A stretch of 54,122 bases of DNA. Source: a virus. Shown one piece after another: positions 11,663-40,564 of this stretch. The notes below the pieces were generated by a model that searched no databases, had not been told where the DNA came from, and worked only from the letters and a program-made list of their open reading frames with translations. Numbering within the stretch: the stretch's first letter is position 1; every line of letters begins with the position of its first letter. The DNA lies in the IMG/VR virus record IMGVR_UViG_3300036830_000174, positions 1 to 54,122 of that record, one strand, 5' to 3'. Made by a program: the position numbers and the translations under genes.

Positions 11663-11976
11663 TCCTCGCGTCGGTCACGGAACAGGTACTCGTCGTCACG
11701 GTGCCATCTGTTATCGGCTCGCTCATCGCTGGGGCCTGCGCGGTGTGGGCAGCAAAAATCGGACTCGCTAACCGTGCGAGCCTGCACGAGGTCAAGCGCA
11801 AAGTGACGACGCCCGGTAAGGGCACGCTCGGCCAGAAGCTGCAGGCGGTCGCCGAGGTGCCGCGCTACGGCAAGCCCTCGCCAGCGATCGCCGTCGAAGC
11901 CGACGTGCGTGCGCGTCGCGACGGGCTAGACGCGCCGCCGCAGCCGCTCGCCGACCGGGACCTGCCGCATGGCTAG
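11659..11976 (+). CDS. small membrane protein before the portal gene
   Basis: The 105-residue product starts at ATG 11659 (ATGA overlap). Residues 5-33 are a hydrophobic segment (VLVVTVPSVIGSLIAGACAV), then a basic stretch (HEVKRKVTTPGKGTLGQKL). Small actinophage proteins with one segment followed by a HEV/NSxxH-type tail are sometimes annotated as holins or membrane proteins. A better holin candidate lies at 46554. It overlaps the portal gene by 8 bp. Confidence 0.55.
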   Translation: MILASVTEQVLVVTVPSVIGSLIAGACAVWAAKIGLANRASLHEVKRKVTTPGKGTLGQKLQAVAEVPRYGKPSPAIAVEADVRARRDGLDAPPQPLADRDLPHG

Positions 11977-14176
11977 GTCCTCGGTCAAAGACCGCGTCGT
12001 CTCCCGCGTTCGCGAGACCGTCGAGGACTACACCGGCGTCACCGTCGCCGACGTCAAAGAGGTCGGCGCGCTGCGCGAGAGTGCCGTGCAGTTGGAGATG
12101 TGGCGGGAGGAGGCGATGGAGCTCGCGTACTGGGCGATGGACTACTTCTCCGGGCGCCCGCAGGAGATGCGCCCCGAGCGACGCAACCGCTTGGCGCAGC
12201 GCTCGCGCATCGCGCAGATGCAGGACCCGCTCGCCGGCGCTGAGGCGCAGCTGCTCGCGAACTTCTCCTTCGGCCGCGGCATCGGACGCCCGCAGGCGAT
12301 TCATCCCGCCGTGCAGGCCGTGATCGACGAGGCGTGGGAGAACCCCGTCAACCTCGAGAAGCTCACGAGCTACGAGGCGCAGCGCCATCGCTCGAACGAG
12401 ATGATCGCGCAGGCGAACCTCTACCCGACCGCGTTCGTGCGCAACGGCAAGGTCCGCGTCGGCTTCCTCGACGCCGACCAGGTCCCGCACATCGTCTGCG
12501 ACCCCGAGGACGACGAGCGCCCGCTGTGGTTCGTGACGCGCAAGTACGAAGTCGGCTGGGACTTCGAGAGCGATCGCCCACTCGCGGCCTCGGCGATGGG
12601 CGGCAAGGGCGGCAGCTTCATGACGCCGCAGATCGTCTACTACCCGCACTGGCAGAACGTCACCGACGCGATGCGCGAGCGCGTCAAGAACGGTGAGGAA
12701 GAGCTAGAGCTCCCGCCGGCGAAGAAGATCGGCGGCGGCTACGTCGCGCACTTCCGCATCAACCGGATCGGCCGCACGCAGTACGGGACGCCGCCGTGGG
12801 CCCGGACGCTGCGCTTCTACTCGGCGATGAACTCGCTGACCGAGGCGCACGTCGCGATGGCGCAGGCGCGCAGCTCGTTCATCGCCAAGCGCGTGAGCAA
12901 AGGCACGCCCGAGCAGATTCAGCGGATGGCGAACTCGATGCTGAGCATGGGCGGCGAGATAGGCGCCGCCCGCTTCGGCGAGAACCCCGGCATGATGGAC
13001 GGCCCGACCGGCTTCGGCGGCGGCTTCGGACCGGAGGCAGGCTTCGACCCGCGCTTCTCACCGCCGATGGCTGGCTCGGTCTGGCACGAGAACGAGTCCT
13101 CGACGCTCACGAGCCTGCAACTGAGCAGCGGTGCCAGCGAAGCCGAGCAGAGCGCGCAGGTCGTGCGCGCGCCGATCGCCGGCGCGGCGCAGTTCGGCCA
13201 GCACTACTTCGGCGACGCGAGCAACGGCAACCTCGCGTCGAACACCTCCCTCGAGCTGCCCGCGCTGATGAACGTGCAGGCGTGGCAGCAGACCTTCGAG
13301 GACCTGCTGCGGTGGTTCACCGACATGGCGATCGAGGCGGCCGTGCGCAACGGCGACCTCGGCGGCCAGGCGACGCCCGACGAAGACGAAGAAGACGACA
13401 TTCGCTTCGAGGTGCCCGACATCTCAGACCCGTCGCTCGCCGAGGGCGAGGACGCCAAGGACCCCGAACAGGTCCTGCGCGAGTGGGAGGACGAGACCTA
13501 CCGGCGCACGCGAGCTCGGCTGCGCGCCGGCGAGCGCCGCAAGATGCCGCTGCACACGCTGCGACTGCGCGAGGACCAGCAGGAGATTGAACGGCGCACG
13601 GGCATCGACCTCTCCTACACGTTCACGATGCCCTATCCCGGCCGGCGCAACCTGCCCGACGTGCTCGCCGCAGTGAACACGGTCGCGCTGAGCTATGACC
13701 CGATGGGCCAGAACATTCCGCTGCGCCGCTCCCTGCTGTTGTTCCTCGCCTCGCAGGGCCTCGAAGTGGACGACCCCGCACGTTGGGTTGACGAGGTGCT
13801 GCCGAAGAACACGAAACCACCGCCGATGATGCCCGGCGCACCTCCCGGCGTCGCTGCGCAGGCACTCGCCCCACAGCTGCGGCCCGAGCGACAGATCGGC
13901 GACCCTAAAAAGGATGCGTCGCAGTCCTTCAACGCGCTCGGCCGGATGAGTCCGAACGACGAGATGGGCGAGGCGATGGTCTACGCGCTCGGAGGGCCCG
14001 CCGGCGTCGAACGCCTGCGCGAGTCCTACGCCATGCAGCAGGTCGGTGCCGCGCTCGCGCGTCTCAGCGAGAACCGCTGGGACCAGCCGGCCGTCGATCG
14101 CGCGGTCGAGGATCTTCTCGCGCCGGCGGCTACGCCCGCGAACGGGAACGGGGCTAGTGGCGGCTCCGGCGAGTAG
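11969..14176 (+). CDS. portal protein
   Basis: This 735-residue protein should form the dodecameric portal ring at the capsid vertex through which DNA is packaged and exits. Size and order (immediately before MuF, protease, decoration and capsid genes) fit. Typical phage-portal features include the N-terminal ANFSFGRGIGRPQAIHPAVQ, a central GYVAHFRINRIGRTQYGTP, and HYFGDASNGNLASNTSLELP with the following helices, seen in portals of large actinophages. A Gly/Phe/Met-rich insertion (about residues 320-375) is probably a loop or tunnel-region elaboration. The C-terminus is Pro-rich, then helical. It overlaps the next gene by 20 bp. No large terminase is found upstream. Confidence 0.88.
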   Translation: MARSSVKDRVVSRVRETVEDYTGVTVADVKEVGALRESAVQLEMWREEAMELAYWAMDYFSGRPQEMRPERRNRLAQRSRIAQMQDPLAGAEAQLLANFSFGRGIGRPQAIHPAVQAVIDEAWENPVNLEKLTSYEAQRHRSNEMIAQANLYPTAFVRNGKVRVGFLDADQVPHIVCDPEDDERPLWFVTRKYEVGWDFESDRPLAASAMGGKGGSFMTPQIVYYPHWQNVTDAMRERVKNGEEELELPPAKKIGGGYVAHFRINRIGRTQYGTPPWARTLRFYSAMNSLTEAHVAMAQARSSFIAKRVSKGTPEQIQRMANSMLSMGGEIGAARFGENPGMMDGPTGFGGGFGPEAGFDPRFSPPMAGSVWHENESSTLTSLQLSSGASEAEQSAQVVRAPIAGAAQFGQHYFGDASNGNLASNTSLELPALMNVQAWQQTFEDLLRWFTDMAIEAAVRNGDLGGQATPDEDEEDDIRFEVPDISDPSLAEGEDAKDPEQVLREWEDETYRRTRARLRAGERRKMPLHTLRLREDQQEIERRTGIDLSYTFTMPYPGRRNLPDVLAAVNTVALSYDPMGQNIPLRRSLLLFLASQGLEVDDPARWVDEVLPKNTKPPPMMPGAPPGVAAQALAPQLRPERQIGDPKKDASQSFNALGRMSPNDEMGEAMVYALGGPAGVERLRESYAMQQVGAALARLSENRWDQPAVDRAVEDLLAPAATPANGNGASGGSGE

Positions 14177-18453: not shown

Positions 18454-19908
18454 GTGAGCGATGAGCACCCCACTGTCGAAGGCGACCTGCTCGAGGCGGA
18501 CGAACTCAGCCAAGCCGGCCCGCTGATCGAGGCGACGGCGCGCGTGATCGTGCCGAAGAAGGGCAAGCTGTTCGAGAGCGACGGCAGCGTCGGGGTTTGC
18601 ATCATCCGGCCGTGCGTCAGCCGTGGCCGTGCGTTGCGTGGGCTGCGCCCGATCTACACGCCAAAGATGCTCGAGCAGAACGCCAGCGTGTTCGGCGGCT
18701 GGCATATGTTCATGGACCATCTCAGCGAGCAGATGGTCGAGGCGGTGCGCAAACGCGAACGCTCGATCCGCGAACTCGGCGGCCGCATCCTCGTCGAGGG
18801 CCTGCACTTCTCGAGCGACTTCCGCAGGAAGGACGACGCCGACTTCGGCTATCACCCCGGCGGCGTGATCGGACGCGCGATCCCCCAGCCGCCGGTGCGC
18901 TCCATGCTCGAGGCCGACCCAGAGATCCTGCACACGTCGATCAACGCGTGGCCGACCGGCGCGCGCGAGGGCCAGATGTGGGGACAGAAGGGGATGCTGG
19001 TCGAGGGCATCCGACGCAAGCCACAGGGCAGCGTGGACTGGGTTCTGCGCGGCGGCGCAGGCGGCCACGTTCTCTCCGAGGACGAAGCCCTTGCGGTTTC
19101 ACTTTTGGAGGCGTACTACGATGCCGCACCAGACGACATGGCTGGCCTTGACGACATCACACTGGAGCAACTCACGGAGGCGGTCAAGGACCGCAACCCA
19201 AAGCTCCACGTCCAGCTCACCGAGGCCATGGGCGGCACGGCGAAGTGCCCCGACTGCGGCAAATCGTTTCCGGCCGACGCGCTCGCCGCGCACATAAAGA
19301 GCGAGCACGGCAAACCGGCCAAGTCCGCCAAGGTCAAGGAGGACGACGTCGAGTACCTCACCGCCGACGACCTCGCCGAGGCGCTGAGCGCGCAGGCCGA
19401 CGAGCTCACCCGCGGCTTCGCCACGAAGCTGAGCGAGCACGACCAGGCCGTCCAGGAGCGCGCCGAGCAGTTGCTCGAGGAACGCGCCGGATACACGCAG
19501 CTCGAGGCCGCGGCCAAGAAGCTGATTGAGAAAGCAGGGCTGCCGCCGACGTGGCAGGAGCAGTTGCTCTCGCGCTACACCGTTCTTCCGTCCGGCCCGA
19601 CATCGGGACTCGCCAACCTCTCCGAGAGCGAGAAGGACGACGGCACGAAGGTCACTCTGCTCGAGGCGCTGCAGGCGTCGATCGAGAAGGACGTCCAGCA
19701 CGCCGCGAAGATGATCCGCGAGGCGGGCGGCACCGCAACGGTGCGCGGCCTCGGCGGTCTCGTCACCGAGTCGGCCAACGACGCCGGCGGCCGACCGGGC
19801 GCGCACACCCCGACGCCGGCCTGGCGCGAGGGGCTTGACCTCAACCTCAAGGAGGGCGAGTCCGCGGACGACGCTCTCGCCGCGATGGTCCGGGAGGGCT
19901 TGGCCTAA
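18454..19908 (+). CDS. capsid maturation protease with scaffold domain
   Basis: The 484-residue product starts at GTG 18454. Residues about 25-210 resemble phage prohead proteases: ATARVIVPKKGKLFESDGSV, CIIRPCVSRGRALRGLRPIY, then FGGWHMFMDHLSEQM and a strand GRILVEGLHFSS. The H and D-H are candidate active-site residues; the clan is not certain. After AGLDDITLEQLTEAV come a C2H2-like finger (KCPDCGKSFPADALAAHIKS, about residues 265-285) and a long charged coiled coil (residues 300-380) with a final helical tail, typical of scaffolds. Many phages fuse or nest these two functions. An internal promoter-like site and in-frame ATG at 19138 may express the scaffold alone. Confidence 0.7.
   Translation: MSDEHPTVEGDLLEADELSQAGPLIEATARVIVPKKGKLFESDGSVGVCIIRPCVSRGRALRGLRPIYTPKMLEQNASVFGGWHMFMDHLSEQMVEAVRKRERSIRELGGRILVEGLHFSSDFRRKDDADFGYHPGGVIGRAIPQPPVRSMLEADPEILHTSINAWPTGAREGQMWGQKGMLVEGIRRKPQGSVDWVLRGGAGGHVLSEDEALAVSLLEAYYDAAPDDMAGLDDITLEQLTEAVKDRNPKLHVQLTEAMGGTAKCPDCGKSFPADALAAHIKSEHGKPAKSAKVKEDDVEYLTADDLAEALSAQADELTRGFATKLSEHDQAVQERAEQLLEERAGYTQLEAAAKKLIEKAGLPPTWQEQLLSRYTVLPSGPTSGLANLSESEKDDGTKVTLLEALQASIEKDVQHAAKMIREAGGTATVRGLGGLVTESANDAGGRPGAHTPTPAWREGLDLNLKEGESADDALAAMVREGLA
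19095..19122 (+). promoter_or_regulatory. possible internal late-type promoter in the protease/scaffold gene
   Basis: GGTTTCACT (19095-19103), 13 bp, TACGAT (19117-19122). An in-frame ATG at 19138 begins MAGLDDITLEQLTEAV exactly where the protease-like region ends. A transcript starting about 19130 would have a leader of roughly 8 bases. This could be chance, since the site is coding. Confidence 0.35.
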
Positions 19909-20657
19909 TGCCTTACGAGGGTCTAGGCGCCCGCCACGAGGCGATCGCGACAAAGGTCTGCCAGCACGGGCAGATCGTCGTCGAGGACAACATCGTCGGC
20001 AGCGCATTCAAGGCGCTGCAGCTGACCCCCTTCGTGGACCCCGTCGCAACGGATGGCGAAGGCCGTCTGCTCTCGCAGCAGGTCGCGGTCGGCGAGTCGT
20101 TCGAGATTCAGATAGGCGGTGTCCACGAGATGCCGCTCGTCGGCGAACTTGAGGGCCTCGAGGTCAGCGACCGCGTCTACATTCGCGCCAGCGACAATCA
20201 CCTGTTCGGCGCGCCGACCACCGGTGGCACAAACGAGGTGCAGACGCTGACCGAGGAAGGCGTGACAGCCGGTCACTTCACGCTGGAATTCGAGGGCGAC
20301 GTGACGGCGAACATCGCCTTCAACGCCACGGCCAAAGAAGTGCTCGAAGCGCTGGAAGGGCTGGCCGACATCGAGGAAGGCGACATCACCGTCACCGGTG
20401 CCGCCGCTGGCCCGTACACCGTCACGTTTAAAGGGCGCTACCAGTCCACGAATGTGCCTGCACTCGTTGCCAACAACACGGGTCTCATCGGCACGAGCCC
20501 GAAAGTGAAAGTCGCGACGTCGAGCGAAGGCGCGGCGGGAGCGGGAAACTTCCCCGTCGGCGTCATCTCCGAAGTTGATGTCTCGCGCGAACCTGCCGTA
20601 GCGCGGATCAACGCGAACAGCTGGCAGTCCTTTCTACAGGCTGGGAGCGTGACCTGA
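19908..20657 (+). CDS. capsid decoration protein with inserted Ig-like domain
   Basis: The 249-residue product starts at ATG 19908 (one-base overlap). Residues 1-95 (EAIATKVCQHGQIVVEDNIV, LLSQQVAVGESFEIQIGG, VSDRVYIRA) and the last 45 (AGNFPVGVISEVDVSREPA) look like one DUF2190/decoration-type beta fold. Between them, about residues 115-205 form a separate unit. It has GHFTLEFEGDVTANIAFNAT, AKEVLEALEGLADIEEGDIT, then VTFKGRYQSTNVPAL, a pattern that I recognise as a surface domain repeated in actinophage structural proteins. It probably studs the capsid. The insert would face outward and may bind glycans. It directly precedes the major capsid gene. Confidence 0.75.
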   Translation: MPYEGLGARHEAIATKVCQHGQIVVEDNIVGSAFKALQLTPFVDPVATDGEGRLLSQQVAVGESFEIQIGGVHEMPLVGELEGLEVSDRVYIRASDNHLFGAPTTGGTNEVQTLTEEGVTAGHFTLEFEGDVTANIAFNATAKEVLEALEGLADIEEGDITVTGAAAGPYTVTFKGRYQSTNVPALVANNTGLIGTSPKVKVATSSEGAAGAGNFPVGVISEVDVSREPAVARINANSWQSFLQAGSVT

Positions 20658-21769
20658 TGCCCGGATACGGCCGCTGGGGCAAGCACATCGAGCTTTTCAG
20701 CCGATACGAGACCTTCCGCGATGACCCGAAGGTGCAGGAGATGCTGATGCAGGAGGCGTACCAGGGCGGACCCGTTCGCTCCGGCACCGGCGGACCGGAG
20801 GGTCGCGCCGATTTCCCGCTCTACCTGCAGACGGTCATCCGCCACACGATGCGCGAGCGCTTCCAGACGGTCGCCGCGAAGTGGGACTCCTACATGGGGA
20901 TCGAAAATGCCCTGGACTTCCGCGAGCACACGGTCTCGCAGATCAACGGCATTCTCGGCGTCGGCGACGTACAAGAGGACGGCGAGTACCCGAAGATGCG
21001 CACGTCGGAGACCCCTGGGCCCTCGTTTGCCGTCGGCAAGCACGGCGGCACCTACGACGTAACGATGGAGCTGGTCATCAACGACCAGGTCGACTACATC
21101 TTGAATCGCACGCCGCGCGAGCTCGGCCGCACGATGGCGGAGTACATCTCCCGCGTGATCGTCGCGTTCATCGAGAGCGACCCGACGTACACGCCCGACG
21201 GCGAACCATACTTCTCCAACGCCCACGAAAACAACGTGGTCGGCGAATCGGCCGAGGCCAACGAGGCCAACCTGCTCGCCGCGCTGGACATCATGCAGCT
21301 GCGCCGCGCCGCGGACAGCCACACGCCGTTCACGGTGCAGCCGAGCAAGATCCTCGTGCGCGCTCCGAGCCACAAGGCGCGGTTCGACGCGATCATCCGC
21401 TCGCAGTTGACGGGCGTCCGCCAGGACGCGCCGAGCAACCCCGGCTTCGGCGTCTTCTTTGCGGGCAACTACAACCCCGCCTTCAACGTCCTGCCTCCCG
21501 ACGCCGTCGTCCAGGAGCCGTGGCTGAACACGCCGCAGGACTGGTACATCTTCGGCGACGCGGCCGACCGCGCCCCCTTCGTGATCGCGTTCCTGCAGGG
21601 CAATCAGACGCCCTTTATCGGGCTGAAGGACCCGCAGGTCCGAGACGCGTTCTCGAACACGAGCGACCCGTACTCGTGGTGGTTCGACCAGATCGCATTC
21701 AAGCTGCGGCACTTCTTCGGCGTCGCCGCCGGCGAGCCGATGGCCGCGATGCGGATGGTCCCCGCCTGA
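20657..21769 (+). CDS. major capsid protein (HK97-fold)
   Basis: The 370-residue product starts at ATG 20657, following the decoration gene with a one-base overlap (TGATG). Order and length fit an HK97-fold shell protein. Recognisable features are RHTMRERFQTVAAKWDSYMG, the E-loop-like KMRTSETPGPSFAVGKHGGT, the strand-helix VINDQVDYILNRTPRELGRT, a DGEPYFSNAHENNV motif seen in Mu-type gpT capsids, and the P-domain strand PSKILVRAPSHKARFD. The end (FDQIAFKLRHFFGVA) is the usual final strand. No long N-terminal delta domain is present, so a separate scaffold is expected and is available upstream. Confidence 0.88.
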   Translation: MPGYGRWGKHIELFSRYETFRDDPKVQEMLMQEAYQGGPVRSGTGGPEGRADFPLYLQTVIRHTMRERFQTVAAKWDSYMGIENALDFREHTVSQINGILGVGDVQEDGEYPKMRTSETPGPSFAVGKHGGTYDVTMELVINDQVDYILNRTPRELGRTMAEYISRVIVAFIESDPTYTPDGEPYFSNAHENNVVGESAEANEANLLAALDIMQLRRAADSHTPFTVQPSKILVRAPSHKARFDAIIRSQLTGVRQDAPSNPGFGVFFAGNYNPAFNVLPPDAVVQEPWLNTPQDWYIFGDAADRAPFVIAFLQGNQTPFIGLKDPQVRDAFSNTSDPYSWWFDQIAFKLRHFFGVAAGEPMAAMRMVPA

Positions 21770-22593
21770 TGCCTAGGGGCGAGCACACCGCCACAGGCCC
21801 GACGTTCAGCGTCGGCCCGATGGACGTGGACAGTGCGGCGGGGCTGACCGGACGTCTCGGCACGCACAACAAGGCGGGCGCGCTGCTGCGCCGTCACGCC
21901 GCGTCCTTCCCGCGCGCGCTCATGCGCATCCTCGAGCTGCCGAAGGACGACGTCGGCTCGCGCGCGGTCAAGCGCTGCCTGGACTCCGTCAAGGAGGCCG
22001 CCATCTCGGCGAAGGGTCGCCACCAGTTCCTGCGCGAGGACGACGAGGTCCTTGCCGCGAGCGTGCGCGAGGATCCCGCCAGCGGCGAGCGCTTCGTTGC
22101 GCTCATCTACCGCAAGCCTTCCGGGCGTATCGCGCGAGGCGCGATCGACGCCGACAGCGTGCTCGGCCTCGACGAGGCAATCGCCGACCAGAAGGCCGAA
22201 GACGCAGTCGAGCGCGGCGGGCTGCACCTGGCCGCTGGCTTCGGCGAGGCACCCGTGCCACGATCCTTCGACGACGCCGCCGAGCTCGACGACGCACGCG
22301 AGGAGGCCGCGCGCCTGCGCCGCGACTCCGAGGAGCGCGAACGCAAGCACGCGAACACGATGCGCGAGCTCAGCGAGCGCCTCGCCGCGCTCGAGGATGC
22401 GCCGCCCTTCGAGGGCTACGGCGACACGAACGCCAAGGACCTCGCTACACAGATCAAGTCGGAGGGCCTCTCGCTGTACGGTCGCGTCGGTCTCGAACGG
22501 ATCGTCTCCTACGAGGAGGCACACCAGAACCGCTCGACGGTCGTCGACGCCGCGAAGGACGTGCTGGCGGCGGCTGAGGCCGCAGCGACCTAG
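21769..22593 (+). CDS. head-module protein with central coiled coil
   Basis: The 274-residue product starts at ATG 21769 (one-base overlap with the capsid stop). The first half has a compact domain (AGLTGRLGTHNKAGALLRRH; GERFVALIYRKPSGRIARGA). Residues about 160-215 are a charged coiled coil (DAREEAARLRRDSEERERKH). The tail is helical (DAAKDVLAAAEAAAT). It could be a head-completion, vertex or fibre-attachment protein, since a fibre gene follows. No family is recognised. Confidence 0.6.
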   Translation: MPRGEHTATGPTFSVGPMDVDSAAGLTGRLGTHNKAGALLRRHAASFPRALMRILELPKDDVGSRAVKRCLDSVKEAAISAKGRHQFLREDDEVLAASVREDPASGERFVALIYRKPSGRIARGAIDADSVLGLDEAIADQKAEDAVERGGLHLAAGFGEAPVPRSFDDAAELDDAREEAARLRRDSEERERKHANTMRELSERLAALEDAPPFEGYGDTNAKDLATQIKSEGLSLYGRVGLERIVSYEEAHQNRSTVVDAAKDVLAAAEAAAT

Positions 22594-22607: not shown

Positions 22608-23681
22608 ATGGACGCCGTCGCGAACTTCTCCTACACGACGGTCACGGTTGCGCCTTCGCCGGCGGCATCTGGGACATCGCTCACCGTCGGCGATCCCGAA
22701 GTTCTGCCGGTACCGCCCTTCAACGCCGTGGTCTGGCCGGCTGGCGCGCCGATTCCGCTGGCTACGCAGGCCGAGGTCGTGCGCGTGACGGCCGATGCCT
22801 CCGGCGTACTGACGATCGTGCGCGACGCCGAGACGGGCGGGATCACTCGCTCGATCCGCGTCGGCGATCAATTCATGGCTGCGATCACCGCAGGGCTACT
22901 CGAACAGATCGGCTCAGGGGGCGGCGGTGGCGCACTGCTCAAAGCGAGCAACCTGTCGGACCTGGCAAGCGCATCGACAGCGCGTACTAACCTCGGTCTC
23001 GGCACCGCTGCCACGCAACCTAGCTCGGCTTTCGATGCTGCCGGTGCTGCCGCAGCCGCAGCGGCAGCCGCCTTGGCAGCCGCAGAAACAGTAGCCAACG
23101 GCAAGCTCGCCAAAAGCGCGAATCTCAGCGATCTAGCGAGCGCAAGCACGGCTCGAACGAACCTCGGCCTTGGGACCGCAGCTACTCAGGCTGCGAGCGC
23201 CTTTGACAGTGCCGGTGCTGCTGCTGCGGCAGAATCGGCTGCTACCTCGGCGCTGGCCGCAAAGGCTCCCCTAGCCTCTCCAGCCCTCACCGGCTCCCCA
23301 ACGGCGCCGACCCAAACCGCTGGCGACAACTCGACAAAGCTCGCAACGACGGCGTTTGTGGCGAAGGCGATCGAAGCCGTAGTCGCAGCGAATACGCAGA
23401 CGGCCGCATATACGCTCGTGATCGGCGACCTCGGGAAGGTCGTAGAGCTGAACTCAGCCTCGACGGCAGCGGTTACGGTTCCTCCACACTCGAGCGTGGC
23501 GTTTCCTGTCGGGGCGATAATCCCTCTCGCTCAAATCGGAGCCGGCAAACTCGAAGTAAAAGCTGGCGCAGGAGTGACGATCCATAGTTCTAGCTCGCTT
23601 AAGACACGCGCTCAATGGTCCGAAGTAACGCTCCGTCAGCGCGCCGAAAACGAATGGGTGCTTTCCGGGGATCTTGAATGA
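22608..23681 (+). CDS. fibre protein in the head module (head-fibre candidate)
   Basis: The 357-residue product starts at ATG 22608. The N-terminal 100 residues are a beta domain (VANFSYTTVTVAPSPAASGT, EVVRVTADASGVLTIVRDAE) of the type that anchors phage fibres. Two copies of NLSDLASASTARTNLGLGTA (residues about 115-137 and 172-194) flank Ala-rich helices. Next is the fibre repeat ASPALTGSPTAPTQTAGDNS, TKLATTAFVAKAI and a C-terminal beta head (YTLVIGDLGKVVELNSASTA). Tail fibres share these repeats, but the gene lies between capsid and connector genes, so display on the capsid is inferred. Composition is less GC-rich than its neighbours. Confidence 0.75.
   Translation: MDAVANFSYTTVTVAPSPAASGTSLTVGDPEVLPVPPFNAVVWPAGAPIPLATQAEVVRVTADASGVLTIVRDAETGGITRSIRVGDQFMAAITAGLLEQIGSGGGGGALLKASNLSDLASASTARTNLGLGTAATQPSSAFDAAGAAAAAAAAALAAAETVANGKLAKSANLSDLASASTARTNLGLGTAATQAASAFDSAGAAAAAESAATSALAAKAPLASPALTGSPTAPTQTAGDNSTKLATTAFVAKAIEAVVAANTQTAAYTLVIGDLGKVVELNSASTAAVTVPPHSSVAFPVGAIIPLAQIGAGKLEVKAGAGVTIHSSSSLKTRAQWSEVTLRQRAENEWVLSGDLE
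22950..23189 (+). repeat. 23-residue protein repeat, synonymously diverged
   Basis: 22950-23018 and 23121-23189 both encode the same 23 residues (NLSDLASASTARTNLGLGTA plus ATQ), yet 18 of the 23 codons differ. The protein repeat is exact while the DNA repeat is poor. Confidence 0.85.
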
Positions 23682-25204
23682 GCGTTCTTCTCCTCGCACG
23701 TCCGCGGGGAAGGCGGCGAGGGGCCGGCCCGTCTACGCCGGTGCTCGATACGTTCACCCGTACAGAATCGCCGCTGAGCAACAGCGCGAACTGGGTTGGC
23801 TTCCGCCATGAAGGTGCCACGCCGGCGACGGGCGCAACGAATGGGTCGGTGCTTCAGCTAGCTGCAGCGAACCCGTCTATCCGAGGAGCCCTCTGGCACA
23901 CGGTTTTCGCGGCTGCGCAACAGGACGTCTTCTGCGACATCTCGGCGATTGGCTCGAACTGGCTCGAACTCTGGCTCGCGGAGGAATCCGAAACGGCTGG
24001 CTACTCGATCGAAGTCGTGCCGGAAACCGCACCCAAATGCAAATACGTGCTGCTCAAGAATCACACCACCACCCTCGCCACCGTAACGGGCGAACTCGAA
24101 GTAGGCGACTCTCTCTGGCTCAACTACGTGGAAGCGACGGGCATCCTGACGGTATGGCGCAAGCACGCAGGCGTGTGGGCGAAGGTCACTGAATTCACCG
24201 ACACAACTCCTCTGAAACACGGTGGACGCATCGGGTTCGCGGCTCGATGCAACACGGCCGAATGGCAGCTCGACAACTTCGGCGGCGGTGGCGAAGCCGT
24301 AGTGGAAAGCGTCGCAAAGGGCTTCTCAACGAACTCAGACTTTGAATCAGCAGCATCCGCTGCCGCCTACGCGCTAGCCAGCCCAACCTATTGCCGCGTT
24401 GGGTTCGCCATCGGCGCGAGTGCCGCAGAAGTCGCGGCCGCTACGACGTTCTTCAACAACAAAGGCATCAGTTGCATCCCGATGGCAGGGGCTTCGGGAC
24501 GAATTGCAACATCGGCCGAGGCCAAAGCGCTGAAAGCATGGGCCGAAGCGATCGTGACAAAAGGTGGTCAGTTCATCGAGTTCGAGAACGAGACGAACTA
24601 CCAGATCGAAAACACGAAGGCCAACGGCAAGATTTACGGCGAACGTGCCAAAGAAGTTGGCGAAGCGATCAACGGGACCGGAGTCAAGGTACTCGTACAG
24701 GGCTCCGACGCCGGTAAAGGCGGAGCGCAGGTCTGGCTTGAAGGCGTGCTCGAAGGTTGGCCGAAATGCTGGGAACACCCGGCGTTCGGCGGCTGGACGA
24801 TTCATCCCTACCCGGGCCAGAAGAAATCCGGGCTGACCGACGAATTCGGCCTGCTCATGACCAAACGGATGATGACGGCACTGGAAGAAGCGGGCGACAC
24901 GACTTCGCATATCTGCGCAACAGAGTGGGGCGAGACGTGTACGGCCAACGGCCGCAAACTGAACTCCGAACAGGAATTCAACTACGAACAGGCCGCCAAA
25001 GTGCTCGAAGAACATCATGTACTTCTGGCGAGTGCCGCGAAAGGCCGATTGTTCATGCTGCTGCTCTTCCAGCCGCACGATCAGAAAGAAGACAACGGCA
25101 CGAGCGAAGAACGCGAATGGTTCTTCGGTGCTATGACGAACACCGGCGCGACCAAGGGCTCGTTCACGACGTTCGTTCAGAAGTGGCTGAAAGGCGAAGC
25201 GTGA
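23678..25204 (+). CDS. clan GH-A-like glycoside hydrolase with N-terminal lectin-like domain
   Basis: The 508-residue product starts at ATG 23678 (ATGA overlap with the fibre gene). Residues about 20-205 look like a concanavalin/laminin-G-type sandwich (DTFTRTESPLSNSANWVGFR ... GGRIGFAARCNTAEWQLDNF). Residues 215-508 look like a TIM barrel. FIEFENETNY after a strand places the likely acid/base Glu305, GGWTIHPYP fits a barrel strand, and CATEWGET places the likely nucleophile Glu416, as in GH5/GH39-type enzymes. It probably cleaves a surface polysaccharide during adsorption or release. The substrate is unknown. Glu codons are mostly GAA, unlike the portal region, suggesting separate origin. 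Confidence 0.72.
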   Translation: MSVLLLARPRGRRRGAGPSTPVLDTFTRTESPLSNSANWVGFRHEGATPATGATNGSVLQLAAANPSIRGALWHTVFAAAQQDVFCDISAIGSNWLELWLAEESETAGYSIEVVPETAPKCKYVLLKNHTTTLATVTGELEVGDSLWLNYVEATGILTVWRKHAGVWAKVTEFTDTTPLKHGGRIGFAARCNTAEWQLDNFGGGGEAVVESVAKGFSTNSDFESAASAAAYALASPTYCRVGFAIGASAAEVAAATTFFNNKGISCIPMAGASGRIATSAEAKALKAWAEAIVTKGGQFIEFENETNYQIENTKANGKIYGERAKEVGEAINGTGVKVLVQGSDAGKGGAQVWLEGVLEGWPKCWEHPAFGGWTIHPYPGQKKSGLTDEFGLLMTKRMMTALEEAGDTTSHICATEWGETCTANGRKLNSEQEFNYEQAAKVLEEHHVLLASAAKGRLFMLLLFQPHDQKEDNGTSEEREWFFGAMTNTGATKGSFTTFVQKWLKGEA

Positions 25205-25218
25205 GTCGCCTAGGCGAC
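25205..25218. promoter_or_regulatory. 14-bp perfect palindrome
   Basis: GTCGCCTAGGCGAC is perfectly palindromic and lies in the 45-bp gap between the glycosidase stop and the connector gene, 16 bp before a TAGACT. It is a plausible operator or short hairpin. Confidence 0.45.
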
Positions 25219-25233
25219 AACCGCCTCGGAGCC

Positions 25234-25249
25234 TAGACTCGGAAAGCCC
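25234..25249 (+). promoter_or_regulatory. possible -10 element before the connector gene
   Basis: TAGACT (25234-25239) lies 10 bp before GTG 25250, without a GGTTTG-like box. The GTG has no good ribosome-binding site (only GGAAAG), which favours a short or absent leader. Confidence 0.35.
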
Positions 25250-25771
25250 GTGGAACTCCCGACCCCCGAAGCGCTCCGACAGTTCAGTTCCGTGCTCACG
25301 GCGCGGCTCCCGGAGGACGGCGGCGCGAACGACGCCTACCTGACGCGCGCCGCGAGCGTCGAGGGCCCGCTCGTCGCGCGCATGACGGGACGGAAAATCG
25401 GCTTCCCCAAGATGCCCGGGCACAAAGTCGAGGAATGGCTCGAACCAATCGCCGTCAACGTGATCGCGCTGCGCATCGAGCGCTCGGTGATTCTCGGCTT
25501 CAAGGCGAAGACGCGCCAGGCGACCGTCGAGGGCGCGCGTCTCTCGAGCTTCTCCGCCGGCCCGTACTCCGAGAGCTACCAGCCGATGGCGGCCGAGTTC
25601 TCCGGCCACGTGCTCGACCCCGACCGCGCGATCCATGACCTGCTGTGGGAGCTCTGCACCGAAGAAAAGCGCGGATGGTGGCGCGCGTACTGGGGCGGCT
25701 ACAACGTGCCCGCCGGCGCGGCGCAGTCGGTCCCGTGGGCGCTGCCCGGGCGCGTGCGGCAGGGGTACTAG
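25250..25771 (+). CDS. head-tail connector protein
   Basis: The 173-residue product starts at GTG 25250. Helical segments with AYLTRAASVEGPLVARMTGR, EPIAVNVIALRIERSVI and LSSFSAGPYSESY match the Ad1/gp6-like head-tail connectors. These stack under the portal and often contain the 'gxxlxsfxaGpySxsY' motif. The C-terminal part (HDLLWELCTEEKRGWWRAYW) is less typical. It opens the connector block. Confidence 0.72.
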   Translation: MELPTPEALRQFSSVLTARLPEDGGANDAYLTRAASVEGPLVARMTGRKIGFPKMPGHKVEEWLEPIAVNVIALRIERSVILGFKAKTRQATVEGARLSSFSAGPYSESYQPMAAEFSGHVLDPDRAIHDLLWELCTEEKRGWWRAYWGGYNVPAGAAQSVPWALPGRVRQGY

Positions 25772-26176: not shown

Positions 26177-26430
26177 TGGAGGGGCGCCAGCTGCCCGACG
26201 GCGAGATAGCTGGCGAGGCGTGCTTCGAGCCGGGCGTCTACGGCCGCATCAAGGAGAACGGCGACTGGTACGCGTGCACGCCGCCGGGGATGCTCGCGAA
26301 CCTTGCCGGGCACGACGTCGTCGAGCACGATGACGGCACGATCACCGCGAGCCCTTCGATTCTCGTCGGCGACGGCACCGGCCGCCAGTGGCACGGCTAC
26401 CTCGAGCGCGGCGTCTGGCGGAGCTGCTGA
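26176..26430 (+). CDS. small unknown protein, DUF6527-like
   Basis: The 84-residue product starts at ATG 26176 (one-base overlap). It contains PSILVGDGTGRQWHGYLERG, which recalls the DUF6527 ending (S-x-WHG-L-G), and two Cys (EACFEPG, YACTPPG). Such proteins are common but unexplained in phages. Probably not essential to the connector. Confidence 0.55.
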   Translation: MEGRQLPDGEIAGEACFEPGVYGRIKENGDWYACTPPGMLANLAGHDVVEHDDGTITASPSILVGDGTGRQWHGYLERGVWRSC

Positions 26431-26432
26431 GC

Positions 26433-26987
26433 GTGGGCTATACGCAGGTCGGCGACCTCGAGGCGATGTTCGCCGTCGAGCCGTGGGAGCGCTGCGCCGA
26501 ACGGATCACTAGGCGCTGCGGCGATCGCCTGCTCGAGCTGGCGCGCGCGTACACGCCGATCGCCGTCGTGGACCCCGAAGAGCAGTTCGCGCGCGGGCGC
26601 GTGCCGGGCACGCTCAAGGAGAAATGGCGCATCGGCGAGGTGCGACTGCTCGGCACCGGGCACTTGGAGGTCGTCATCGAGAACAACGACCCGATCGCGC
26701 GCTACGTCGAGTATCCGACCAAACCGCACACGATCCGTCCGAAAGCCGACCGCCAGGCCGCCAGCGTGGTCGAGACGCGCAAGCCGCGCGGCACCCTGCA
26801 GGACGGGCGCGCGCATCTGCGCTTCAAGGTCGGCGGCCGCGTGGTCTACGCCCGCGAAGTGCATCACCCCGGCACGCACGGCGCGTTCATGCTCACGCGC
26901 GCGCTGGCGACGCTCGCCACGGAGTGGCCATCGATCGCGCGCGAGGAGATTGCGCGTACGGCGTCAGAGGTAGGCTCGACGCTGTGA
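26433..26987 (+). CDS. HK97 gp10-like tail-completion protein
   Basis: The 184-residue product starts at GTG 26433, two bases after the previous stop. A long N-terminal helix (WERCAERITRRCGDRLLELA) is followed by ARYVEYPTKPHTIRPK and RFKVGGRVVYAREVHHPGTH and a C-terminal helix. This 'vEyG-xxph-I-P ... v-HPGt' order is typical of gp10-like neck proteins of long-tailed phages. The position between connectors and sheath agrees. Confidence 0.75.
   Translation: MGYTQVGDLEAMFAVEPWERCAERITRRCGDRLLELARAYTPIAVVDPEEQFARGRVPGTLKEKWRIGEVRLLGTGHLEVVIENNDPIARYVEYPTKPHTIRPKADRQAASVVETRKPRGTLQDGRAHLRFKVGGRVVYAREVHHPGTHGAFMLTRALATLATEWPSIAREEIARTASEVGSTL
26947..26983 (+). promoter_or_regulatory. weak late-type promoter candidate (15-bp spacer)
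   Basis: AGATTGCGC (26947-26955), 15 bp, TAGGCT (26971-26976), 7 bp, GTG 26984. The box is partial and the spacer 2 bp longer than in the main set. It is within coding sequence. Confidence 0.35.
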
Positions 26988-27668: not shown

Positions 27669-28004
27669 ATGAGCGAGACGTCCACTGAGCAGGCGAAGCC
27701 GGGCAGCGGCCCGGACCGCGGGAAGGCCGCCACTCCGCCCGCAGCGCCGCCCGCCACTCCGCCCGCAGCGTCCCCGGATCCCGCGCCGGAGGGACCGCAG
27801 GAGTTCACCATCTCCAAGCTCGTCCAGCGCGCCGAGTCGCTGCTCGAAGTTTCGCCGCATGTCGTCGTGGCTGCGCTACACGATGTCGAGGCCGATGCGA
27901 CGCTCACGCTCGACGACGCCAAGCAGCGCGTCGAGGGCTACCTCGAGCACGTCGAGGTACGCGACGGCCGCGAGCCGCAGCCTGAGCAGGGGGCGAGTTC
28001 GTGA
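27669..28004 (+). CDS. Pro/Ala-rich protein before the sheath gene
   Basis: The 111-residue product starts at ATG 27669, set by the late-type promoter. Residues 1-45 are Pro/Ala-rich and disordered. Residues 50-100 (EFTISKLVQRAESLLEVSPH; TLTLDDAKQRVEGYLEHVEV) form a small helical domain. Similar proteins precede actinophage sheath genes. It may aid tail assembly; function unknown. Confidence 0.6.
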   Translation: MSETSTEQAKPGSGPDRGKAATPPAAPPATPPAASPDPAPEGPQEFTISKLVQRAESLLEVSPHVVVAALHDVEADATLTLDDAKQRVEGYLEHVEVRDGREPQPEQGASS

Positions 28005-29479
28005 GCAGCGGGACCTTCGTCAAGCCGGTGCTGCCGGGCTCGGCGATCACCTTCGTCGGGCAGGCGATACAGCGCGTCGCGCCGTCCTTCGCCGATGTCG
28101 TCGCGCTGCCCGTGACGCACACGTGGGGCCCGGTGAACGAACCGACGCTGCTCGAACGGTTCTCCGACTGGGAAGAGATCTTCGGTCCCGACGAATCGGA
28201 GGGACGGCGCGCGGTCCTTCAGGCATTCGCAGGCTCGAATCTCCCCGGCCGCGGCGGAGCCGGCGGCGTCTACGTTTCGCGCCTCGCGGGCTCGGGAGTC
28301 GCGAAGTCGGCGATCGCACTCACGAACACAAAATCCGCCGAAGTGGCGCTGAAACTGAAAGCGGTCTACAACGGCACCGCTGGCAACCAGATTTCTGTCG
28401 AGGTCGAGCACGACCCGAACACCGCTGGCAACGACCTGCTGATCGTCTTCTTCCGCGGCATCGAACGCGAGAGCTACAGCTACCTCGCGACGAACATCAA
28501 AGAACTCGGCGAACAGATCGAAAAACTGTCGGCGCTGCTCGATGTCGAAGGCTCGGTCATCACCGGCACGGGCCTCACGCAGATTTCCACGACGGCGCTC
28601 ACCGGCGGCAACGACGGACTGACACTGACGGGCACGCAGTACACGAACTTCCTGAACTCGATGAGCTTCCGCCCGTTCAGCCTGATCGCCTACGACGGCA
28701 CAGAATCGGCGATCATCCTGCAGTTCAACGCGTGGCAGAAGGAACAAGCCGCAGCCTTCCGGCCGGTCATGTTCTTCTGCGGGGGTGCCACTGGCGACAC
28801 GGTCTCCGCAGCCGCGACGCGCGCCAGCGAACTCGCTGACCCGCACGCAGTCACGCTCGGCGTCGGCGAATACTTCGATGACCTGCTGCAGCGGACGCTG
28901 AGCACGGCCGAACTCGCACCGCGCCTCGCTGGCATCTGCGCCGCGCGCGGGCAGAAGGCGAGCCTGACCTTCGCCGACCTCGGTGGCCTGCACGCCGTCG
29001 GCTCCACAGCACCCAGCGAGTCGCAGCTCGCCGTGCTGATGGAAAAGGGCGTGACAGCGATCCGCCAGACCGAGGACCCGGAAACGGACCTCATCATCTC
29101 CAAGGGCGTCACGACGTTCACGTCGAAGACGACCGAAGGCAAACCCTACGAAGTGTTCAGCGACCCGCGGCTCGTCCGCGTCATGGACCTGTTCATCCGC
29201 CGGATGAAGCTGTGGGGCGACGAGAACATCATCGGTGACACGACAGTCACCGACGACTCGCGCGCGAGCGTCCGGGCGCAGGGCAACAAGGAACTGGAAA
29301 AGCTCAAGGACGAAGGGCTGATCCTGCCGGAAGATAAGACGGCCGACCCGCCGGTGCCCGCGCCGTTCATCGCGACACCGTCCCCGGAAGTCGGCCTGCT
29401 CGACGCGATCCCCTTCAACTTCGGCTGGCAGTTCGCGCGGACCGCCAACTACATCATCGGCAACGGAGTCGTGAAATAA
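28001..29479 (+). CDS. contractile tail sheath protein
   Basis: The 492-residue product starts at GTG 28001 (GTGA overlap). The N-terminus FVKPVLPGSAITFVGQA, followed by PVTHTWGPVNEPTLLERFSD and FAGSNLPGRGGAGGVYVSRL, is typical of sheath proteins. Further on are ALTGGNDGLTLTGTQYTNFL and the conserved C-terminal domain VMEKGVTAIRQT-type region (MEKGVTAIRQTEDPETDLII; DPRLVRVMDLFIRRMKLWG), ending NFGWQFARTANYIIG. This protein forms the contractile outer tail and defines the virus as a myovirus. Glu codons shift to GAA after about 28.3 kb. Confidence 0.92.
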   Translation: MSSGTFVKPVLPGSAITFVGQAIQRVAPSFADVVALPVTHTWGPVNEPTLLERFSDWEEIFGPDESEGRRAVLQAFAGSNLPGRGGAGGVYVSRLAGSGVAKSAIALTNTKSAEVALKLKAVYNGTAGNQISVEVEHDPNTAGNDLLIVFFRGIERESYSYLATNIKELGEQIEKLSALLDVEGSVITGTGLTQISTTALTGGNDGLTLTGTQYTNFLNSMSFRPFSLIAYDGTESAIILQFNAWQKEQAAAFRPVMFFCGGATGDTVSAAATRASELADPHAVTLGVGEYFDDLLQRTLSTAELAPRLAGICAARGQKASLTFADLGGLHAVGSTAPSESQLAVLMEKGVTAIRQTEDPETDLIISKGVTTFTSKTTEGKPYEVFSDPRLVRVMDLFIRRMKLWGDENIIGDTTVTDDSRASVRAQGNKELEKLKDEGLILPEDKTADPPVPAPFIATPSPEVGLLDAIPFNFGWQFARTANYIIGNGVVK

Positions 29480-29482
29480 GCC

Positions 29483-29986
29483 ATGCCCGGTGTAGGCCCC
29501 ACTTCTAGCCTTCCGCCCGCCGCACGCCGGCGCGGCCGCTCCGGCACCGCCTGGCGCGAAGGCAACATGCTCGGCGAGGTGACGCAGGTCAACTGGGACG
29601 TCACCCTGCAGCAGATCGACGTGCCGCTCGCCGGCTCGTGGCGCAACGGCCAGACGGCTGGCCTCGAGACGCGCACGGGCACCTTGCAGCACCAGGACGT
29701 CGACGACCGTTTCAAGCTCGAGGTGTGGAACTACATACAGGCGCGTCGAAACGGCGACCGCTCGGCGCACCCCCCGATCTTCGACCTCGTCGTCGTCATC
29801 GACGACATCGGCGCGCCGCAGGCCACACGGTGGATGCTGCAGGAATGCCAGCTCTACACCTACTCTGGCGGCTACTCGAACGAAGACGACCTCATCACTC
29901 GCCAGATCCCGTTCTCGTTCGTGGACGACCGCCCGCTGGACGCCTACGAATACGGCGGCTCCGGCATCGTCGTTACCGAACGCTGA
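29483..29986 (+). CDS. tail tube protein
   Basis: The 167-residue product starts at ATG 29483, three bases after the sheath stop, the standard order. It is a beta-rich tube subunit with GEVTQVNWDVTLQQIDVPLA, a loop DRFKLEVWNYIQARRNG, strand IFDLVVVIDDIGAPQATRWM and LQECQLYTYSGGYSNEDDLI. This resembles XkdM/T4 gp19-type tubes. An N-terminal Pro/Arg-rich arm is predicted disordered. Confidence 0.85.
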   Translation: MPGVGPTSSLPPAARRRGRSGTAWREGNMLGEVTQVNWDVTLQQIDVPLAGSWRNGQTAGLETRTGTLQHQDVDDRFKLEVWNYIQARRNGDRSAHPPIFDLVVVIDDIGAPQATRWMLQECQLYTYSGGYSNEDDLITRQIPFSFVDDRPLDAYEYGGSGIVVTER

Positions 29987-31167: not shown

Positions 31168-34100
31168 ATGGACGGCACCGTCAGCGGCAAGTTCGAGCTC
31201 AACGCCGAGCAGCCGCGCGGCGAGCTCAACGCCACGCAGCGCGACGCGCGTGCGCTGAAAGGCACCCTCGAGGAGCTAGGGCGCACGATGGACTCGCTCG
31301 GCGGCCAGTCGAGCACGCGCGGGCTGCGCAGCTACCGAAGCGAGATCCGCAGCCTGCGCAACGACGTCGTCACCACGGCCGAGACGATCGAGGACCGCTG
31401 GCACTCGATGGAGCGCAGCGTCGTGGACAGCGTCGGCGTGCAGATCGCCGCGGTGCGCAACCTGCGCCGGGAGGTCAACGACCTCGGCCACGATCGCGGC
31501 CGCGCGAGCGTCAGCGTCGGCGGCGTCGATGAGGCGATCGCGAAGATCAAGGCTCTCGAGGCCGAGCTCGACGCGCTGGACCGCCGGCGAGCGCGCGCGC
31601 ACGTGGGCGTCTCCGGCGGTGGCGGCGGTGGCTCGGGCGGCGGCTCGCGCTCCTCGCTCTCGCCGGCGACCGAATCGCAGGCCCTGACGCGGGAGTTCAC
31701 GGCGATGCGCGCGTGGATGCGCGGGCACTCGACGTTCTGGAATAACACGCCGATGGGCGACTCGGGTCCAGGCGTGCCCGGCTTCGGCTCGGGTAGCGGT
31801 GGTGGCTCGAGCGGCGGCGGGATCGGCCGCGGGGCAACGACCGACGTCGAAGACGCCGGTCGCGCGGCGCGCTCGAGCACGCACGACTTCTCGATCTTCG
31901 GCCTCGGCCTGAAAGAGCTCGCGCTCGTGGCCGGCGCGGCGCTGCCGATCATTCAGTCGCTCGGCGGCGCCGCTGTGGCGCTCGGCGGGTCGTTTGCGAT
32001 GGCTGCCGAGGGCCTCGGCGCGGTTGGCGTCGCCGGCGCGTCGTCGCTGCTCGTCGGCATCGGGTCGATCGAGGCCGTGGCGAAGCCGGCCGTCTCGGCG
32101 CTGGGCGAAGTATGGAAGGCCGAAACGAGCCTCGAACAGGCGCAGGTCGTCGGCACGCAGAGCACGTTGCAGCACATGCAGGCCGTCGACCAGTTGACGA
32201 ACTCGCAGGAAGCTCTCTCGCAGTCGCAGTTCCAAGCGCGCATGGCGCAGGAAGGGCTGACCACCGCCCGCCGCGAAGCGCGCCGAGCGTTGCAGGACCT
32301 GAACATGACGACGAAGGAAGGCACGCTCAACGAAACGCAGGCGAAAATCCAGTTGCAGCAGTCGCGCCTGACGCTCTCCGAAGCGGAAATCACGACGCCG
32401 GGCGCGAGCCCAAACGAAGAAATCACGCTCTCGAGCGATCGCCTGGCCGTGCAGCAGGCAAAGCTCGGCCTCGAACGCTCGAAAGTCACGCAGGGGCGCA
32501 ACCGCGAAGACCTGGCGCGCGCGCGCCGGCAGGGCGTCGGCGGCAACCCGCAGGTCCTGCAGGCGCAGAACGCGCTGACCAACAGCGTCGCGCAGGAGGC
32601 GCAGGCGCGCCGCGCGCTGCAGGAGTCGGAGATAAGCCTCAAGGGCGGCGGCTCGGCGCTGGTCGGCGCACGCGAAGCGCTGAACAAGGCGCTGGCGAAA
32701 GCGCCGCCCGGCACGAAAGCGCTCGTCGCCGACGCGCGCGAATTCCGCACTCAGTGGCGCGCGGCAACGCGCGGTGCCTCCGCGGACTTCACGGGGCTAC
32801 TGGACGACGCCGTCAAGACTGGCAAACAGATCATGCCGACCATCTCGCGCGCGAGCAACGAATCCATGATCGCGCTGCGCCGCCAGGGCGACGACTTCCT
32901 GCACTACCTCGCCTCGGACTCGACGCGCCGTTGGGTCGAATCCTCCGAGCGCATGTTCACGTCGAACCTCGAAGGCGAGCGCAAGGCGGCGCAGAACACA
33001 GCCACGACGCTGATGCACGTCTCCGAGGCGGCCGCGCCGTTCCTGCACGAAATGGTGATCGGCCTCGACCACATGACCGAACGCTGGTCGACGTCGACGC
33101 GCAACGTCGGCGCGTTCCGCGAACGCCTGCGGCCGCTCGTCAACGACGCCCGCGACTGGTGGCACCTGATGGACGCCGGCACGCACCTGATGGGCGACCT
33201 GTTCCGCGCGGGCGCGCCGTCGGGTTCGAGCATGGTCGTGAACTTCACGCACACCCTGGAAGGCTGGGACAAGTGGATCAACGAAAACCCCGAAAAGGTG
33301 CAGTCGTTCTTCCGCGAAACCATCAGCTCGACCGAAAAGCTGTTCGGTGCCATCGGGCAGATCATCCGCGGCGCCAACGAACTCGCCACGACGCTGCGCC
33401 CGCTGCTCAATGACTTCTCCGAGCTTGTCTCGGCCGCCGGCAACCTCGGCCTGCTCGGCTCGCCGATCGGCCTCGGCGGCGCGTATGCGCTCTACGGCCG
33501 CGGGCGCGCGGCGATCGCCAACCGCGGCGCGGCGAGCACCTCGAGCGCGGCCACCACGGCGGCGGCTCTCGGCGGCTCGATGGTCGGCGGCCGCGGCGCG
33601 GCGCGCGGCTCGCCGGTCCAGCTCGAGGGCGTCAGCAACGTGCGCACCGTCTCCACGACGCAGCGGATGCCCGACGGCACGTTCGTCGCGGGCCCCGTGC
33701 CGATCGGCCGGCAAATCGAGGACACGAGCGCGGGTCTGTTCGTCGGCGTCGCGCACGGAGCCACGCGCGGCGCGCGCGTGCGCTCGGGGCTGCGCGGCGC
33801 GGCCTCGAAAATCGGCACGGGACTCGGCGCTGGCGTCGAGGCCGTCGCGCCGTACTACCTGTTCTCGACGGGTCTGGAAGCGGCGGCGGGTAAAAACCCC
33901 TTCCAGTCGCGCAGTCCGCTCGGGTCGATCGCCAAGACGACGGCCTTCGGCGCTGCGGCTGGCGCGACGCTCGGCTCGATCGTGCCAGGGCTCGGCACGG
34001 GGATCGGTGCCGCCGGCGGCGCGATCGGCGGTGCCATCGGCGGTGGGATCGGTGCGCTTGCACATCTGCTCGGCCACCGCAGCGGCGAAGAAAAGGCAGC

Positions 34101-39373: not shown

Positions 39374-40564
39374 ATGACCGACTTCCTCGACTACCAGCCG
39401 CTGTTCCCGGAGGAGAGCGAGGCGGCGATCTTGCAGCGGTGGATCGAATGGGCCAACGAGGGCCTCTCCGACACCGACCCGACGCGCACGGATACGCGCG
39501 AGGGCAGCATGTGGCGCTCGCTCGAGACGCCGGCGATCCAAGAGATGGCGCGGCTGTACGACCTGGCCGGCTCGGAGGTGCCCGCGAGCGCAAACCCGCT
39601 GAGCGCATGGGGCGGCTACCTGGACGACATCGCCGAGGAGTTCGGCGTCGAACGCCTCCCCGCCACGCACGCGGTCGGTCACGAGATTTTCACCGGGCCC
39701 GAAGGCACGCAGATCGCCACGGGGCTGCGCCTGGAATCGGCGGGCAGCGCCGGCACCGAACCGCTGCTGTTCACCGTCACCGAGGGGGGGGAAATCGGCG
39801 CGAGCGGCTCCCTCGAACTGCCGATCGAAGCCGTCGAACCGGGTTCGTCCGGCAACGTCGGCGCCAACGCGATAACCGCGGCGACGACCGCGCTGCCGGA
39901 AGGCGCGACGGTCAACAACCCCGACGCGCTCACCGGCGGGCAGGACATCGAGACCGACGAACACCTCTCCAAGAAGATCCTCGAACTGTTCGAGGGGCGC
40001 TCGGCCGGGACGCAGCTCGACTACATCATTGACACGCGCGAGTGGCTGCGCCTAAACGACGCCTCGCGCGCGCCAGGCGGCGGCACGGTCTCCTGCATCC
40101 CGGTGTGGAGCGGTGCCGGCACGGTGAAGGTCGTCGCGATGGACGACGACGGCGACCCGCTGGAAGAAGCGATCGTCGGCGAGTTGCAGGAATACTGGGA
40201 TCCGGGGAAAACCGGACGCGGCGAAGGACAGGCACCGGTGAGCGCCGTCGTCACCGTGACAACCGGGACCGTCTTGCAGTTGACGATCGTCGGCGCGATC
40301 ACGTTCCGGCCGGGCTACAGCCTGACGGGCTTCGGTGGCACGATCGCCCTACAGCAGCAGATCGAACGCGCGCTGGTGATCTACGCGCTCGGCGTGGAAG
40401 CCGGCGGCGAGGTGGTCATCGCGCAGATCGAGGGCGCGATCGTCACGGTCCCCGGCGTGGAGGACCTGACGGGACTCAAAGTCAACGGGAAAACGGCGAA
40501 CTTCGCCCTCGGCTCAGAACCGCCGGAAGTGCCGCGCCTGCACAAACTCGAACTCACCGAATAG
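39374..40564 (+). CDS. baseplate J-like protein
   Basis: The 396-residue product starts at ATG 39374, after TTGGAGA. N-terminal helices (ILQRWIEWANEGLSDTDPTR; RTDTREGSMWRSLETPAIQE) lead to the characteristic GYLDDIAEEFGVERLPATHA region and a beta domain (GTQIATGLRLESAGSAGTEP ... ANAITAATTALPEGATVNNP). A wedge portion with DEHLSKKILELFEGRSAGTQ, ending TVPGVEDLTGLKVNG, follows. This is the main wedge protein that triggers sheath contraction. GAG/GAA use changes near 39.64 kb. Confidence 0.85.
   Translation: MTDFLDYQPLFPEESEAAILQRWIEWANEGLSDTDPTRTDTREGSMWRSLETPAIQEMARLYDLAGSEVPASANPLSAWGGYLDDIAEEFGVERLPATHAVGHEIFTGPEGTQIATGLRLESAGSAGTEPLLFTVTEGGEIGASGSLELPIEAVEPGSSGNVGANAITAATTALPEGATVNNPDALTGGQDIETDEHLSKKILELFEGRSAGTQLDYIIDTREWLRLNDASRAPGGGTVSCIPVWSGAGTVKVVAMDDDGDPLEEAIVGELQEYWDPGKTGRGEGQAPVSAVVTVTTGTVLQLTIVGAITFRPGYSLTGFGGTIALQQQIERALVIYALGVEAGGEVVIAQIEGAIVTVPGVEDLTGLKVNGKTANFALGSEPPEVPRLHKLELTE

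Follow-up and report, generated by a model that had tools for sequence, protein, structure and literature searches.

Why does a contractile-tailed phage carry a fibre gene and a glycosidase-like gene between its capsid and neck genes, and where would their products act? The question is raised by an uncultured virus record, analysed here over its whole stretch of 54122 bases (the window), in which the two genes occupy a slot of their own at some distance from the baseplate. We propose, with moderate confidence, that this slot is a variable, swappable host-recognition cassette, in which an anchored fibre is paired with an overlapping glycosidase that would cut host surface polysaccharide.

Gene arrangement around the slot

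Judged from its annotated gene set, the window phage is contractile-tailed, with genes for a sheath (28001-29479), a tube (29483-29986), a tape measure (31168-36165) and baseplate proteins (39374-41110). The same virus appears to be represented by two further contigs, both from one metagenome, whose DNA is near-identical to that of the window. A portal candidate (11969-14176) is encoded upstream of the major capsid protein (20657-21769, + strand; PF25209, E 1e-28; phrog_133), which a sister phage described below keeps at 97% amino-acid identity. Between the capsid gene and the slot lies the gene for a 274-aa protein (21769-22593, + strand), the DNA of which is also kept in the sister; searches of Pfam and NCBIfam with this protein gave no match, and a search of the PDB gave no useful relative. 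The slot itself contains a fibre protein of 357 aa (22608-23681, + strand), with PHROG tail-fibre and minor-tail matches, and a hydrolase of 508 aa (23678-25204, + strand) whose start overlaps the fibre stop. Its right border is the gene for a 173-aa protein (25250-25771, + strand; kept in the sister at 90% amino-acid identity), and further downstream is a neck/tail-completion protein (26388-26987; phrog_5, HK97 gp10-like).

This map bears out the original prediction on two points. The fibre and hydrolase genes do lie between capsid and connector genes, given the PF25209 capsid protein upstream and the phrog_5 neck protein downstream, and the two ORFs run exactly as had been claimed, with an overlap of 4 bp. 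The fibre stop and the hydrolase start share the bases ATGA, which suggests coupled translation of the two genes.

Directly after the baseplate gene gpI, a 455-aa ORF (41145-42512) with fibre-like sequence (HAGKHATGGSDPI) and no family match probably encodes, by its position, the ordinary tail fibre of the phage, in which case the fibre in the slot would be an additional adhesion unit. Elsewhere in the window, after the endolysin gene and distant from the head genes, a gene at 44638-45759 encodes a head-decoration-like protein (phrog_2647, E 2e-25; weak DUF5907 repeat). Immediately ahead of the capsid gene, an ORF (19908-20657) part-matches major tail protein/tail sheath families (phrog_10909, E 3e-13); its GC3 is low, at 0.796.

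Exchange of the slot in a sister phage

The contents of the slot were compared with those of one sister phage, L004 (IMGVR_UViG_3300036784_000125), which has ~86% DNA identity to the window. The blastn identity between the two ends at 22932, just past codon 107 of the fibre gene, and restarts at 25250, the start of the next gene; between these borders (22933-25249, + strand) the sister's DNA is unrelated, with the flanking genes and the first 107 fibre residues retained. In this interval the sister encodes a 204-aa fibre, which has the anchor alone in common with that of the window, and a 427-aa repeat fibre, the two genes overlapping by 16 bp, and the hydrolase was not found in the sister's slot. 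Because the swap borders fall right after codon 107, the anchor is the fixed part of the arrangement and exchange as a block is supported, in line with the earlier proposal that adhesion and glycosidase genes had been acquired together. By comparison with this one sister, the slot is an exchangeable receptor-binding cassette, in which a conserved anchor is kept and the distal genes are replaced between close relatives.

The sister differs from the window at other places as well: an HNH endonuclease gene, which the window does not have, lies between its neck genes (12454-13047 of L004, + strand), and a second inserted ORF lies beyond the HNH gene (13673-14218 of L004, - strand). Both resemble mobile insertions.

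The A/T-richer codons that had been attributed to the fibre and hydrolase genes are evident in their third positions. GC3 is 0.598 in the fibre gene after the anchor and 0.697 in the hydrolase gene, compared with 0.872 +/- 0.033 in 27 other ORFs, deficits of 8 and 5 s.d., respectively; the minimum among 78 stretches of 753 bases within those 27 ORFs is 0.785. The anchor-coding part is intermediate, also at 0.785. Values are likewise low for the sister's different slot occupants (0.776 and 0.708), and low G+C therefore accompanies whatever enters the slot.

In the mechanism that we favour, the conserved N-terminal anchor of 107 residues would fasten the fibre to the virion, probably on the tail or close to the neck, and the fibre tip, beyond the repeat shaft, would bind the surface of the host. 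The hydrolase gene, with its start overlapping the fibre gene, would yield a virion protein located near the fibre; the possibly lectin-like domain and the barrel of this protein would bind and cut host surface polysaccharide by a retaining mechanism, and this cutting would let the phage reach its receptor.

The strongest rival, which we nevertheless regard as unlikely, is that the fibre is on the virion and the glycosidase is not, the enzyme being made late, released at lysis and left to thin the polysaccharide around neighbouring cells. Consistent with such a free enzyme, no anchor or other known virion-binding domain is present in the hydrolase, and the second position in the sister's slot is filled by a fibre-like protein, so the slot does not demand an enzyme. 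However, the overlap with the fibre gene within a structural operon suits a virion protein, as does the possible binding domain at the N-terminus of the hydrolase.

The fibre anchor and its likely attachment site

The window fibre consists of a 107-aa anchor domain (22608-22928, + strand), kept in the sister and in 79 viral loci, and a repeat shaft with a C-terminal domain at residues about 255-357 (together 22929-23681, + strand; phrog_8780 and phrog_21510). The C-terminal domain also occurs in L025 and L031, and the fibre matches the repeats of short tail fibre gp92 (PDB 9zd7, E 1e-8). A profile built from five anchors and run against viral contigs gave 179 confirmed relatives, 79 loci of which were kept. 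The anchor-bearing proteins span 116 to 1728 aa, some of them shortened by contig ends, and their C-terminal parts differ strongly in length. When 20 proteins of the window were compared with the anchor loci, the fibre alone had relatives in the viral ones, which indicates that the anchor moves between otherwise unrelated phages.

The original prediction was that the unit is displayed on the capsid, a reading drawn from the position of its genes inside the head module. Such a unit, a head fibre with a glycosidase held on the head, ranks next after the free enzyme, and we consider it improbable. In its favour, the two genes adjoin the capsid gene neighbourhood, and head fibres that aid adsorption are described for phi29 and P68 (PMC9863714); yet gene position says little in this case. 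The 25 most frequent families of upstream neighbours at the anchor loci include head protein, portal, major head and head-closure families, with no tail family among them, and fibres with this anchor are thus commonly encoded downstream of head genes; most of the relatives that bear a name are nevertheless called tail fibres in their annotation.

The structural evidence also speaks against the capsid. A profile of 30 anchors matched a single sequence in the PDB, chain 1 of 8JOV (E 1e-16), which is entered as 'Putative tail fiber protein' and present in 18 copies. In 8JOV, the portal-tail complex of podophage GP4, six trimeric fibres are attached to the nozzle. The entry also contains a 12-copy portal with clear homology to the portal of Burkholderia phage DC1 (E 1e-267), a phage in which the anchor is present in four fibres. 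The main doubt about capsid display comes from these two results taken together, since this kind of anchor is known on a tail complex and a position downstream of head genes is normal for such fibres. We accordingly suggest that the fibre is more likely to be attached to the neck or tail than to the capsid shell, although the window phage has another type of tail and homology to the 8JOV anchor is no proof that the fibre sits on it. In the open literature searched, we found no earlier case of a head fibre combined with a glycoside hydrolase or of a capsid-associated depolymerase.

The genes downstream of anchor fibres are diverse, and in most of the other anchor loci the next gene is of another kind; the idea that the hydrolase is the standard partner of these fibres was rejected on this basis. 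Some other anchor fibres do have carbohydrate-related companions, in keeping with the proposed cassette: in a TM7 phage the fibre is fused to a pectate-lyase, and elsewhere the downstream genes include those for a GDSL-like hydrolase and for a protein resembling CBM5/12. A search of the PDB with the product of the 131-aa gene adjoining the fibre in L042 gave no useful relative. One further phage contig, IMGVR_UViG_3300005435_000031 (L138 and L059), encodes both a glycosidase relative and a fibre with the anchor, unlinked and ~17 kb apart.

The hydrolase and its predicted active site

Returning to the favoured reading, in which fibre and enzyme act together on the host surface, we ask what the hydrolase resembles. 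No family match was found for it in PHROG, Pfam (above cut-off) or NCBIfam, none among phage records and plasmids, and none in a scan of genome contigs that reaches close relatives only. No signal peptide is evident in its N-terminus (MSVLLLARPRGRRRGAG). Relatives were found further afield. Two matches at E up to 0.01 were obtained in the 396 genomes of the phylum that were searched, one of them a real relative (L101); the other, over 47 residues, resembles a sugar-binding regulator and was set aside. With a two-sequence profile and a cut-off of E 0.001, relatives were then detected in 23 of the 399 genomes searched from one actinobacterial class, several of these genomes having multiple copies (at most five); genes for relatives also lie on four further viral contigs (L136 to L139). 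The best neighbour in the tree, L130, was considered as a prophage gene and rejected as such, its surroundings resembling ordinary bacterial genes.

The N-terminal domain (residues 19-205; 23732-24292, + strand) has no match in Pfam. Six matches at E up to 0.01 were found in the 399 genomes, two of them in large bacterial proteins that contain a homologous domain: L140 aligns over residues 2-186, nearly the whole domain, at 31% identity, and L142 contains repeated copies of it. The other four matches are short, interrupted or chance-like. The motifs LDxFxR at the start and DNFGGG at the end are reminiscent of ConA-like domains, and a lectin-like nature is plausible for what is, by homology, an unnamed bacterial domain.

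The rest of the protein (24287-25204, + strand) is predicted to form a clan GH-A-like (beta/alpha)8 barrel. A single-sequence model of the whole hydrolase reached a pLDDT of 35; for the catalytic domain, an AlphaFold2 model based on an alignment of the phage relatives L136-L139, with the bacterial homologues left out, gave a (beta/alpha)8 barrel with a pLDDT of 81 and a pTM of 0.84. Matches to this model in Foldseek and VIA were to clan GH-A enzymes (GH2, GH5, GH79, GH1, GH51 and GH39), with VIA Z-scores of 20-21 and a tie between GH1, GH51 and GH39. The nearest solved sequence by profile is PslG, at an E of 0.0022 that is too weak for the domain to be filed in GH39; identity to solved relatives is 12-17%, and homology to named CAZy families is remote.

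In the model, Asn304 and Glu305 (24590-24592, + strand), the latter the predicted acid/base, lie at the end of beta4, and Glu416 (24923-24925, + strand), the predicted nucleophile, at the end of beta7. Across an alignment of 19 full-length members, one of them the window protein, both glutamates are invariant, and so are N304, R240, W373, H376 and Y378. Loss of both catalytic glutamates in homologues was looked for and is not the general pattern, the pair being retained in four of the five copies in other phage genes (the exception is one copy in L137) as well as in the 19 members. The barrel model and these homologues thus uphold the prediction of a clan GH-A-like hydrolase: a glycosidase domain of this clan with an intact predicted Glu/Glu pair is supported, and retaining glycosidase activity would be expected. 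It is very improbable that the barrel is inactive and works as a carbohydrate-binding adhesin, a use that may exist given that one L137 copy has lost the catalytic motifs and its neighbour keeps them, and with which the Glu at position 303 of the window protein, Gly in the other aligned members, would fit, but against which stands the presence of E305, E416, N304, R240, H376 and Y378 in the window protein.

In the L137 phage contig, a 1694-aa protein (5807-10891 of L137) has two GH-A copies flanking a GH5 cellulase domain, the first without both catalytic glutamates and the second intact. The GH-A relatives of this contig lie among fibre-like genes, as read by eye, a setting in line with the favoured pairing of fibre and enzyme.

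Relation to known systems

The closest known counterparts of the fibre are the tail fibres of Bcep22-like podophages (8JOV; Burkholderia phage DC1 and relatives), which share its homologous N-terminal anchor, a gene position downstream of head genes and variable distal parts. These phages are podophages without an overlapping GH-A glycosidase gene, whereas the window phage is contractile-tailed and has one. The hydrolase, for its part, has in its model the (beta/alpha)8 barrel, the Asn-Glu on beta4 and the Glu on beta7 of PslG and other GH39 and clan GH-A glycosidases, which, in contrast, are cellular enzymes.

Tailspike and tail-fibre depolymerases resemble the window unit in being encoded in a virion module, in having a predicted glycan-cutting domain and in the exchange of distal parts on a conserved anchor. 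They differ in usually being one polypeptide on the baseplate; the window instead encodes its fibre and its enzyme in two overlapping genes, placed after the capsid gene and before the neck genes. A 2017 review places depolymerases on tail fibres or tailspikes and describes a single pre-neck exception, Dpo7 (PMC5380687). The head fibres of phi29 and P68 (PMC9863714) and the lactococcal neck passage structures with carbohydrate-binding modules (PMC6669499) are likewise adhesion parts located away from the baseplate. We found no sequence relation between these and the window unit, and the text consulted describes no glycosidase in them, unlike the window unit with its predicted one.

The window unit would therefore be composed of known parts in an unusual pairing and position, together with an unnamed GH-A family. 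A more far-reaching version of our proposal, which we offer tentatively as a possibility, is that this unnamed clan GH-A family, present in phages and one Actinomycetota class, is displayed at the neck or head via a fibre with a podophage-type anchor, forming a second apparatus for adhesion and depolymerisation that is exchangeable and distinct from the fibres of the baseplate. Depolymerases are mostly sought at the baseplate, and a fibre and glycosidase slot among head and neck genes would escape annotation based on position. The domain family, recurrent in bacterial genomes of one actinobacterial class, has no Pfam or NCBIfam name, and the hydrolase is a candidate for attacking the surface glycans of bacteria that have received little study.

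The anchor domain, in turn, can serve as a probe by which exchangeable tips are located across many phages. Many of the genes just downstream of anchor fibres start with a short motif like MFGANYFGQPYFGQAYAG (for example in L021, L035, L038 and L039; also L050, L069, L083 and L088), which is absent from the window hydrolase and could be the docking peptide of a second adhesion protein.
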